The notes under the pieces: generated by a model | Databases searched by the model: none | Told to the model about the DNA's origin: nothing | The model's input: only the letters and a program-made list of their open reading frames with translations | Part shown: positions 1,885 through 5,356 of the stretch, piece after piece | Layout: each line of letters starts with the position of its first letter | How positions within the stretch are numbered: the first letter of the stretch is position 1 | Virus record (IMG/VR): IMGVR_UViG_3300044712_000492 | Span: 1 to 22,090 of that record | Strand: one strand, 5' to 3' | Length of the DNA stretch: 22,090 nt | Source: a virus | Made by a program: the position numbers and the translations under genes

Positions 1885-2358
1885 TCAGAACTGCAGCGGG
1901 ATCTTCGTGGTGACGTTGGCGTTCTGGCGTTTGAGGTCGTACCAAGTCACGAGCGCATACCCGCGCGTTGGGAAGTTCGCGTCGGTCTCGACTGTGATTG
2001 AGTCAATGCGCGCTGAACCGTCATCGACCACGGGCGCGAGCGCTTGGGTGAACGCGTCTGTCACATACCGCTCAAGGTCAGCGCCGCACTTGTCTGGCGT
2101 ACGCAAGCCCTGCGTCGGCCAGTTGGCGCGGCTTCCAAGCGAGAGTTTGCACAGGATGAGGATGCGTTGGCCCGTGTCGCTCATGCCGTTTTCGGAGCCG
2201 TACGCGTCGTGCGTGGTGTCCATCTCGACCGGATCGATCGCCACGCTGCTAACCGCGCCCGTGCTCGACTTCTGCCACAGCGAGGCAGCGTAGAGCGGAC
2301 CGTTAGCGACCTGCGTTCCAAGGCCGGCGGGTGTCGTGCCGAGAGCGTGGATGGTCAT
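1885..2358 (-). CDS. Baseplate wedge protein, Mu gp46-like (gpW/gp25 type)
   Basis: Codes for 157 residues. After an N-terminal part that includes AIDPVEMDTTHDAYGS comes the region typical of gp25/gp46 wedge proteins: a hydrophobic strand (GQRILILCKLSLGSRANWP), then a helix (CGADLERYVTDAFTQAL) followed by alternating strands (ARIDSITVE, GYALVTWYDL). Such proteins form the inner baseplate wedge with the gp47/J protein and connect to the sheath. The gene lies directly before the gp47-like gene, as in Mu. The ATG at 2358 is nine bases after the stop of the Pro/Ile repeat gene, and the Shine-Dalgarno is weak, so translational coupling is likely. The call rests on gene order plus these partial matches. 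Confidence 0.72.
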   Translation of the reverse strand: MTIHALGTTPAGLGTQVANGPLYAASLWQKSSTGAVSSVAIDPVEMDTTHDAYGSENGMSDTGQRILILCKLSLGSRANWPTQGLRTPDKCGADLERYVTDAFTQALAPVVDDGSARIDSITVETDANFPTRGYALVTWYDLKRQNANVTTKIPLQF

Positions 2359-2367
2359 CTGTGTTTC

Positions 2368-2691
2368 TCAGGCGAGGGGGCAGGGCGGCAATGTGATTCC
2401 GGGGATCCTCGGGATGGGCAGCGGAGGGGGAAACGCCGGGATCGTCGGGATCTTGATCTTCAGACTGATGCCTAGCTCCGGAAGCGAGAACGAAGGAATG
2501 CGAGGAATCGGCAAGGGCGGCGGTATCGCCGGGATCGTGGGCAGCTTGATCGGAATCTTGATCTTGAGTCCGAACTCAGGCAGCTCGAAGCCAAAGGAAG
2601 GGATGCGCGGAATCGGTATCGAGAATGCGGGTATCCCGGGCAATCGTATGCTGAACGGCAACGCAAACTTGCACGGACCGATCGAAGGCAT
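2368..2691 (-). CDS. Proline/isoleucine-rich repeat protein, possible spike-associated protein
   Basis: Codes for 107 residues with no recognised domain. The sequence is built almost wholly of Pro, Ile, Leu and Phe with scattered Lys/Arg. A unit reading roughly IPAxPPPLPIPRIPSFxLPE then a short Lys/Ile strand (LKIKIP) begins at residues 20, 53 and 84; the third copy is incomplete. A Cys sits near each end (residues 7 and 104). The ATG is two bases upstream of nothing else: it starts at 2691, two bases after the spike stop codon (2694), and the ORF ends nine bases before the gp46-like start. A gene of this kind is not part of the standard Mu order. Repeat copies keep the amino acids while changing codons, which argues that the protein is made and selected. 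Position beside the spike suggests a baseplate or spike-tip part; this is inference. Confidence 0.75.
   Translation of the reverse strand: MPSIGPCKFALPFSIRLPGIPAFSIPIPRIPSFGFELPEFGLKIKIPIKLPTIPAIPPPLPIPRIPSFSLPELGISLKIKIPTIPAFPPPLPIPRIPGITLPPCPLA
2401..2634 (-). repeat. Degenerate protein-level tandem repeat (31-33 residue unit, about 2.5 copies)
   Basis: Inside the Pro/Ile-rich gene, units start at residues 20, 53 and 84. Between copies two and three, over PTIPAxPPPLPIPRIP, fifteen residues are identical but eleven of those fifteen use different codons. The repeat is therefore old at DNA level and preserved at protein level. Confidence 0.8.
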
Positions 2692-2693
2692 TG

Positions 2694-3326
2694 TCAGATA
2701 TTCACATTCGGTGCGCCGCCTGCTGCCACTGTCGCGGCATTGAGCGGACGCTTGGCTCCGACGTGGAGCGAGTGCGTGCCCACCATGTCATTCATCTCGG
2801 GCGCGATGTTTTGGATCGCCTTCTGGCTGTAGGTGGTGACTTCCTTGTCGCCGCCGTGGATCGTGATCCCGTCGTCGTCGCTAATGATGATTCCGCGCCC
2901 GCCAGCGGTCATGAGTGTGATTGCATGCCGCTTCGGCGACATGCTGAAGACCATGTTGTTCTTGCCATCGGGCGCTAGGATCGTCACGCTGCCATCGGCA
3001 TTGACTCGAATCACGTTGCCGCCGATTGAGTAGATCGCAACGTCGCCTTCCTTCATCTTTCCGAACACTGTCGCGGCAGCCAGAGCGCGCGACGCAATCG
3101 TGTAGAGGCTCTGTCCGAACCTGTACACGAGCGCCTCCGCTCCCGCCGGCAACCGCGAGATGAAGCCGTAGTCTTGCCACGAGTCGGCGGGTTCGCTCTC
3201 GTCAATCGGAGTCTGGTCAACCCACGGGTCCTTTGGGTTCCGCTTGGGTTCCTCAAAGAACGTGGCAATGATGTTCTTCGCGTTGCCGAGCAGGTCGGTT
3301 CGCTTCACCTTGCGAATGTCAAACAT
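2694..3326 (-). CDS. Baseplate spike protein (Mu gp45 / P2 gpV-like)
   Basis: Codes for 210 residues from the ATG at 3326, which overlaps the stop of the hub gene as TAATG. An upstream extension in the same frame is possible but would lie wholly within the hub gene, so the short form is preferred. From about residue 88 the protein is a run of short strands with turns (GDVAIYSIGGNVIRVNADGSVTIL, HAITLMTAGGRGIIISDDDGITI is the same style), as expected for the OB-fold and trimeric beta-helix of spikes that pierce the outer membrane. It lies directly after the hub gene, the same place as Mu gp45. The C-terminal tail (GTHSLHVGAKRP onward) contains no HxH, the motif that binds iron at the tip in P2 gpV and Mu gp45. 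Confidence 0.75.
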   Translation of the reverse strand: MFDIRKVKRTDLLGNAKNIIATFFEEPKRNPKDPWVDQTPIDESEPADSWQDYGFISRLPAGAEALVYRFGQSLYTIASRALAAATVFGKMKEGDVAIYSIGGNVIRVNADGSVTILAPDGKNNMVFSMSPKRHAITLMTAGGRGIIISDDDGITIHGGDKEVTTYSQKAIQNIAPEMNDMVGTHSLHVGAKRPLNAATVAAGGAPNVNI

Positions 3327-4450
3327 TATTCCGCGTGGTCCACATCTGAGAACGTGATCGAGCCGAGCGGAACGCACTTGAGCGTGGTCGTGGTCCCGCC
3401 CGTCGCGCTCTTGCTGAACGTTCTCTCTCTGACGTACATGTCTTCGTGCACGCCTAGGTAGTCGTCTTCGATGTGCGCAACCGTGTCGATCGCGTACGTG
3501 CGCCCCGTGTCCCGATCGGTGTGCCCGATGAGCGTACACTCATAGACACGCGCGTCCTTGCGTGCTTCGCTCATCTCTTGCTCAGCGAGCGCTTGAGCCT
3601 CATCGTTGGTCGTGCACTGCTCGTGAAACACGTAGCGAGGCACGTAGAGCGACCGCGAGTCGTCCTGAATGAACCCCTCGGCTGTCGACTTCTCCCACTC
3701 CAACTGCGCGCCCTTGCCGTGCACTAGGATGTGGGACGGGGCTTGCGTTGCCTTCTCCGTATAGGACGCGTTGAGAATCTTGACAGACCGCTCGCCGTCA
3801 CGATGGATCAACGAATACGACGGGGCTTGGTCGTAGTCCGGTCCAGACACGACGATGTTGCCAGCCGCATCGCTCCAAATCCACAGCCCGAACCTGCGCA
3901 GGTTGCGAGCGAGAAACTCAAACGCGCCTTCGTTGTGCTTCGCCTTGCAGTAGTCTAGTTCGGTCTGCGTCTTGCGAGCTTTCTTGCCAGTCTTGAATCC
4001 CTTGACGCCGGTCAAGATGTCGCGGTTGGAGTCGTTGTCCGTGATGATCTTCCGACCCATGTTCGGGTACAGCGAGAAGATCGTTGCCTCTACGACCTCG
4101 TAGATCTTCTTGCCCTTGATCGGCATGCTCGGGTGCACGTTCGCATCACAGAGCACCTTGAGCACATCGCGGCCTTGGACGTTGACTGTGAGCCCGCTAG
4201 TTCCTCCGCAACTGACCTTGACCTCATCGATCCAGCCGGTGAGCTGCAGATTGCCGTCAACGCGAACCTCGATCCTCTTGTCCTTCTTGAGCACGTCACG
4301 AAGTGCGCGCCAGTTCGCAAGCGTCGTGGTAGAGAAGGACCAGCCATCGGTTGGCGTCAGGAACTCGCTGTTGATGCTGTACTCGCCCCACTTGGACAGG
4401 ATAGACCCGTCCTCAAGCGTGATGGTCGCCTCACCGAATACATCTCTCAT
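3326..4450 (-). CDS. Baseplate hub protein (Mu gpP / gp44, GpD-like)
   Basis: Codes for 374 residues, about the length of Mu gpP. The N-terminus has the hub pattern: a strand-rich domain with KWGEYSINSEFLTPTDGWSF, then WRALRDVLKKDKRIEVRVDG and LQLTGWIDEV, and the strand VNVQGRDVLKVLCDANVHP, a typical motif in this family. The C-terminal part has strand pairs such as RTYAIDTVAHIEDDYLG and a late MYVRERTFS segment. Hub proteins form the ring under the tail tube and carry the spike. It follows the gpN-like gene by six bases and precedes the spike gene, which overlaps its stop codon, matching Mu order N-P-45. Confidence 0.85.
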   Translation of the reverse strand: MRDVFGEATITLEDGSILSKWGEYSINSEFLTPTDGWSFSTTTLANWRALRDVLKKDKRIEVRVDGNLQLTGWIDEVKVSCGGTSGLTVNVQGRDVLKVLCDANVHPSMPIKGKKIYEVVEATIFSLYPNMGRKIITDNDSNRDILTGVKGFKTGKKARKTQTELDYCKAKHNEGAFEFLARNLRRFGLWIWSDAAGNIVVSGPDYDQAPSYSLIHRDGERSVKILNASYTEKATQAPSHILVHGKGAQLEWEKSTAEGFIQDDSRSLYVPRYVFHEQCTTNDEAQALAEQEMSEARKDARVYECTLIGHTDRDTGRTYAIDTVAHIEDDYLGVHEDMYVRERTFSKSATGGTTTTLKCVPLGSITFSDVDHAE

Positions 4451-4456
4451 GTGTCG

Positions 4457-5356
4457 TTACACTTGAGGGATGAACACCACTGTACCGGCCGGTACCTTGT
4501 CCTTGGCCGCAAGCAGCGGGTTCAACTTGAACAGTTGCTCGATCGTGATTCCGTAGTCTCCTGCTAGCAGTGGCGTGGTGCGCTCTTGCGTTGTGGTGCG
4601 GATGTCGATCGCCTTCTTGTCAACCAGACCCGCACTATCATAAGCACTGACGAGCGCCGTTTCGATGCCCTTGAGCGCTTGCATCACGGGCCATGCTTTC
4701 GGATCGCTCATCTGGTTCGTGAAGTCGATGAGCACATTGACGGCCTCCATCGTCTTCTCAATCTCGGCCAGCATGCCAGCGGCAGTGATGTCCGCTAGCA
4801 TCTGCATTCCCTTGAGCTTCTTGAGCGCGTCGCTGAGCGATGAGCCGCTACCGTCGTTATACTTTGGCAGTTTGATGCCCGGCCCGAGCTTCTCAGCATC
4901 GAGCGCAAGCCCCGTCGCGTACTTGATTGGACTCGACGCAGTAAGCTCGATGCGTAACCCTTTCTCGATCGTCTCAACGAACGAGACCGTCATGTCAACG
5001 CCGTCGCGTCGCGCCGGGTCCCACGACGTGTCGTAGTTCTCGACCTTCACATCCATCAGCCCGAACTCGGGATGCTGCAGCGGCCCCGTGCTGCGGTCAC
5101 AGCAAGCGTTCCAGAAATCGCGATAGGTGTTCGGGTACAGGTTACGATAGCCGAGCAGACCGGCGCGAAACGGGATGGTGAAGGACAGATGCGCGCTCTT
5201 GCGGCACGTGTTCTCTTGCTCTCCGCCGCTCACGCCGTACTGATTGTGCTCCACAAGGTTCTGCGTGACCTTGATCGAGTTGGTCTGACACGGAACCTCG
5301 ATTCCGCGGAACTTGAGCGGCAGAAGGTTGCCGAGGATGTCGAGTGCGTCTGCCAT
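4457..5356 (-). CDS. DNA circularisation N-terminal domain tail protein (Mu gpN-like) with LysM-like C-terminus
   Basis: Codes for 299 residues, clearly shorter than Mu gpN. Residues about 10-135 match the DNA circularisation N-terminal domain: LKFRGIEVPCQTNSIKV, the HNQYG segment, LSFTIPFRAG, a YRDFWNACC helix and VKVENYDTSWDP. In Mu-like phages this protein joins the tail tube to the hub. A helical middle (about 175-245) leads to residues 253-298, which read as a LysM-like module: DYGITIEQLFKLNPLL then VPAGTVVFIPQV. It starts one base after the tape measure stop (TGA-C-ATG) with no good Shine-Dalgarno, so coupled translation is likely. The hub gene follows by six bases. The first domain is a firm call, the LysM a good guess. 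Confidence 0.85.
   Translation of the reverse strand: MADALDILGNLLPLKFRGIEVPCQTNSIKVTQNLVEHNQYGVSGGEQENTCRKSAHLSFTIPFRAGLLGYRNLYPNTYRDFWNACCDRSTGPLQHPEFGLMDVKVENYDTSWDPARRDGVDMTVSFVETIEKGLRIELTASSPIKYATGLALDAEKLGPGIKLPKYNDGSGSSLSDALKKLKGMQMLADITAAGMLAEIEKTMEAVNVLIDFTNQMSDPKAWPVMQALKGIETALVSAYDSAGLVDKKAIDIRTTTQERTTPLLAGDYGITIEQLFKLNPLLAAKDKVPAGTVVFIPQV

Follow-up and report, generated by a model that had tools for sequence, protein, structure and literature searches.

What does a small proline-rich protein do directly behind the spike gene of a contractile-tail phage, and could it form the tip of that spike? The way in which phage tails and related secretion machines get into cells is determined by their tips, and the known solutions for the spikes of such machines are a PAAR protein or an iron-loaded histidine apex (PMC10715212; PMC11915804; PMC11948020). 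The protein studied here is encoded in a 22,090-base IMG/VR record (the window, meaning the whole stretch analysed), and an identical stretch was also found in contig IMGVR_UViG_3300044673_000259.

The open reading frame starts with an ATG located two bases past the stop codon of the spike gene and encodes the protein that had been recognised from the sequence in the earlier note (Table 1). That note had counted about 2.5 repeat units. Three Pro-rich copies were found instead, with two short full linkers between them (residues 34–49 and 69–80) and a third linker divided between the N- and the C-terminus, as if the chain closed on itself. The likeness described for copies two and three was confirmed: 15 of 16 residues are the same over PTIPAxPPPLPIPRIP, and 11 of these 15 codons differ. 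The ratio of length to repeat period is 3.45, and the protein ends in CPLA, where its relatives end in CPFD, CPFE, CPFN, CPLD or CPID. With three Pro-rich repeats of about 33 residues, a terminal pair of cysteines and a gene adjoining that of the spike, the window protein belongs to the triple-repeat family described below.

The gene order of the window is Mu-like (tape measure, gp43-like, hub, spike, triple-repeat protein, gp46-like, baseplate J), and it equals that of the Mu baseplate module (gp43–gp48) apart from the triple-repeat protein. By contrast, no gene lies between gp45 and gp46 in Mu, MuM16-2, martha 12B12, B23 and PBb002. The neighbours were as first described, and hub, spike, wedge and J in Mu order form, judged from their sequences, a Mu-like baseplate cluster in which the hub and J matches are strong and those of the spike and the gp46-like protein weak. 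The gp46-like product showed 26% identity (E 2e-7) to the product of the gene at the same position in the relative L010, which itself matched GPW_gp25 weakly (E 0.073). The gene behind which the repeat gene lies probably encodes a spike, as suggested by its position and by weak profile and fold evidence. The OB region of the family was aligned to ordinary gp45-type spikes by hhalign with E 3.7e-5 and a probability of 71, and the Foldseek ranking for the low-confidence AlphaFold2 model of the window spike was led by injection-system spikes, none of them past E 0.001. No RNA element was detected by an Rfam search at the window locus. Additionally, the baseplate J protein of the window is about 140 residues longer than Mu gp47 (encoded by a 1083-nt gene), an extra length that is shared by the relatives.

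Table 1. Features of the window and of the relatives' loci; positions refer to the window unless a locus is named.
Feature	Position	Strand	Evidence or remark
gp47-like baseplate J protein, 504 aa	348..1862	(-)	Baseplate_J, E 9.8e-21
gp46-like wedge protein	1885..2358	(-)	Position and weak similarity
Pro/Ile triple-repeat protein, candidate spike-tip cap, 107 aa	2368..2691	(-)	ORF, held-out profile score, homologues at the same place
C-terminal cysteine codon, Cys104	2380..2382	(-)	Cys three residues from the end in most members (eight in L020, five in L060)
Pro-rich copy 3, residues 81–99, IPTIPAFPPPLPIPRIPGI	2395..2451	(-)	Sequence
Pro-rich copy 2, residues 50–68, LPTIPAIPPPLPIPRIPSF	2488..2544	(-)	Sequence
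Pro-rich copy 1, residues 17–33, LPGIPAFSIPIPRIPSF	2593..2643	(-)	Sequence
N-terminal cysteine codon, Cys7	2671..2673	(-)	Cys at residues 2–7 in the 16 tabulated members; near the N-terminus also in L059 and L060
gp45-like central spike, 211 aa, without HxH apex motif	2694..3329	(-)	Phage_Mu_Gp45, E 0.008 (weak Pfam match)
gp44/GpP-like baseplate hub	3326..4450	(-)	phrog_177, E 5.5e-47; GpP-like_1st, E 4.4e-11
Lipoprotein-like ORF	L004:5347-6138 (-), L010:6307-6957 (-), L011:6624-7184 (-)		
Lipoprotein-like ORF	L016:8240-9055 (-), L017:8249-9118 (-), L022:8390-9145 (-)		
Lipoprotein-like ORF	L027:6309-7124 (-), L046:6539-7396 (-), L047:4334-5134 (-)		

Homologues were reached by walking from the neighbour genes, using hub-, J- and protein-based scans and two DNA patterns. 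The search for relatives beside other phage spike genes, which the earlier note had suggested, was positive: 17 further distinct homologues were found in IMG/VR contigs and in GenBank record MW202476.1, giving a family of 18 members (the window, L004, L010, L011, L016, L017, L018, L019, L020, L022, L027, L030, L031, L046, L047, L052, L057/L059 and L058/L060). The repeat gene was present in all ten loci recovered by hub alignment. It follows the spike gene immediately in 18 of the 18 phages, the distance between the spike stop codon and the start of the repeat gene being −4 to +7 nt in the 11 loci measured, and it precedes the gp46-like gene wherever the next genes are in view. The word "inserted", used at first for this gene, was therefore misleading, since this gene is a constant part of the baseplate cluster in 18 phages and no one-off insertion. 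On the sequences compared, contractile-tail phages of a family not recognised before carry a triple-repeat gene behind their spike gene. Because the two genes share one frame in several loci, readthrough of the spike stop codon into the repeat gene was also considered, but it was rejected since the frame differs in other loci.

Three repeats of about 31–35 residues were observed in all 18 members (17 measured, L060 by eye), the ratio of length to period being 3.0–3.45 in the 16 tabulated members and 3.03 in L059. Every member has exactly two cysteines, placed near opposite ends of the chain; they lie at residues 2 and 97 of 100 in L059, and in L060 two were likewise counted by eye. Both L057/L059 and L058/L060 had been found with an N-terminal DNA pattern that is blind to repeat number and to the C-terminus, and they still show three repeats and a C-terminal Cys-Pro. 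With repeat units delimited simply by a fixed period, the mean identity was 64% between repeats within a protein versus 45% between same-position repeats of different proteins, and the within-protein value was the higher in 16 of 16 members. Recent duplication or conversion of DNA would leave matching codons. However, identical residues in two repeats of one gene share the codon in 253 of 582 cases, close to the 241 that the codon usage of the gene itself would predict, and with codons so near to random the likeness of the repeats is therefore kept at the protein level. A true three-fold partner offering three identical sites would impose such likeness; gene conversion of older date, with silent drift after it, may also be its source.

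The ends of the spikes were then compared. The HxH motif was found in none of the 15 tabulated family spikes versus five of seven Mu-like spikes without the triple-repeat protein (present in Mu, MuM16-2, martha, B23 and PBb002; absent in IPK and MWH W8red2), a contrast to which no significance test was applied because the two phage groups are not independent samples. The family-wide absence of HxH may stem from one ancestral event, and the two Mu-like exceptions mean that HxH-less spikes can exist without the triple-repeat protein. Nor was HxH seen when the ends of the L046, L057 and L058 spikes were inspected by eye. PAAR (PAAR_motif, PF05488) was detected in none of ten records, which included the window and the circular 77-kb MW202476.1, while the positive controls were matched. 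Most of these records are fragments; MW202476.1 is circular, so that the absence of PAAR covers the whole record there. The Apex domain (GpV-type, PF18946) had no match in the same ten records, all of which hold the triple-repeat protein; among the proteins themselves, Pfam gave no match for that of the window and no PAAR match for ten members. The window spike carries a THSLH stretch near its end; the two histidines of this stretch do not make up the HxH apex motif. Most of the family's other spikes have a hydrophobic, Pro-rich tail at the end.

The reading that we prefer, with a probability of about 0.6, is that the triple-repeat protein is the membrane-piercing tip of the spike, a single closed three-fold chain that caps the trimer and is an analogue of PAAR without PAAR homology. 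A chain of about 100 residues would be built from three Pro-rich units joined by short alternating strands, and the third joint would be made by the N- and C-terminal ends, each with its cysteine, closing the chain into a pseudo-three-fold cap. This cap would cover the blunt end of the homotrimeric gp45-like spike, with one spike chain contacted per repeat, and upon sheath contraction would enter the host envelope as a rigid hydrophobic point. It would thus replace the histidine-iron apex of Mu/P2-type spikes and do the job of a PAAR protein. For the triple-repeat protein we infer presence in the virion, location on the spike, one copy per spike trimer, a fold that is closed, a bond between the cysteines or a metal site, and a piercing role. 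The earlier suggestion that the protein caps or extends the spike is favoured by the comparative evidence, namely the adjacency in 18 phages, the invariant three repeats, the spikes without the apex motif and the lack of PAAR in the searches. The chances appear evenly balanced that this is a third means, so far undescribed, by which a contractile injection machine closes and sharpens its spike, namely a single Pro-rich pseudo-three-fold chain closed by cysteines and unrelated to PAAR or the iron apex. If true, the cap shows that a tip can do its work without the metal-bound knot normally used, and provides a compact case for testing how one chain evolves to fit a partner with three-fold symmetry.

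The main rival is the idea first put forward for this protein, a rod in which three copies wind together and lengthen the spike. Extended Pro-rich stretches and alternating strands would suit a fibrous trimer, and the gene adjoins that of the trimeric spike. Moreover, an AlphaFold2 monomer of one relative, built on a shallow alignment, was not confident (pLDDT 59, pTM 0.12, no secondary structure), as expected of an intertwined trimer, and the closed cap is therefore unproven. We nevertheless consider the rod unlikely: repeats in rods usually vary in number whereas 18 of 18 members keep three, so that the data do not favour an extended rod or sheet over a closed cap, and a single chain closing on itself fits with the divided third unit and with the pair of cysteines at the ends. 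It is more doubtful still that the protein is an assembly factor or chaperone, which would hold the spike tip during folding and be absent from the finished virion. Its tight gene spacing to the spike, small size and hydrophobic surface would agree with such a role, which however leaves the family spikes, devoid of the usual apex motif, lacking a known tip, and does not explain why three repeats are held alike.

The link to the spike rests on gene adjacency, and the composition of the triple-repeat proteins is very hydrophobic, so we also weighed a role at another point of infection, such as that of a Pro-rich protein active on membranes or bound to the wedge, the gene position then reflecting the operon only. 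Its chance seems slim, the gene being immediately 3′ of the spike gene in every phage of the family and the invariant design of three repeats being a closer fit to a partner with three-fold symmetry than to the six-fold wedge. A spurious ORF, finally, might be suspected from the low-complexity composition and from MW202476.1 (L004), where the deposited gene call UOF77303.1 (4940–5395) is in another frame and overlies the 103-aa repeat ORF found at 4938–5249 behind the spike gene. This explanation can practically be dismissed: a profile from which the window had been left out gave the window protein 52.9 bits, whereas no more than 25.2 was reached in 2000 composition-matched shuffles, dN/dS was about 0.23–0.28 between pairs of family members, and the ends and the position are conserved in 18 phages.

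The proposed spike cap resembles the PAAR tips (T6SS PAAR, T4 gp5.4) in its size of about 90–110 residues and in having a separate gene; like them it would be expected to close a trimeric spike, and its cysteines possibly stabilise the tip. Unlike PAAR, the triple-repeat protein gives no PAAR match, consists of a Pro-rich triple repeat, has only two cysteines, both terminal, and contains almost no histidine (none in ten of the 12 members counted, one each in L011 and L020). Since both the PAAR profile and a PAAR-type His/Cys metal site were looked for and neither was found (the window protein has no histidine, and each protein two cysteines), it should not be filed under PAAR. The protein would fill the same place, on the same type of spike, as the Apex domain of Mu gp45, P2 gpV and phi92. 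That domain, however, is part of the spike chain and holds iron via HxH, whereas in the family an HxH-less spike is followed by a separate protein.

Searches of Pfam, PHROGs, NCBIfam and PDB sequences with single members and with profiles provided no credible relative of the triple-repeat protein; weak matches to phrog_22486 (E 0.0069) and phrog_33360 (E 0.037) look like an effect of composition and were discarded. In a low-complexity-filtered tblastn against phage records, a member retrieved itself at E 9e-3 only. The family is missed by such standard searches because its sequence is of low complexity, and it exemplifies the structural genes that are hidden by low-complexity filters and gene callers. 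Among the papers listed by literature searches, none gave a description of such a protein, and the family is undescribed in the libraries searched. No prophage was found in scans of the genome_contigs set with hub and repeat-protein patterns. The triple-repeat protein may serve as an easily recognised marker for a poorly annotated phage group.

Additionally, in the loci of nine relatives a lipoprotein-like ORF with a hydrophobic leader, a lipobox-like cysteine and a Gly/Ser-rich linker was observed before the gp46-like gene, on the opposite strand and tail to tail with the repeat gene; it is absent in the window. This ORF is a candidate cargo gene, perhaps for superinfection exclusion.
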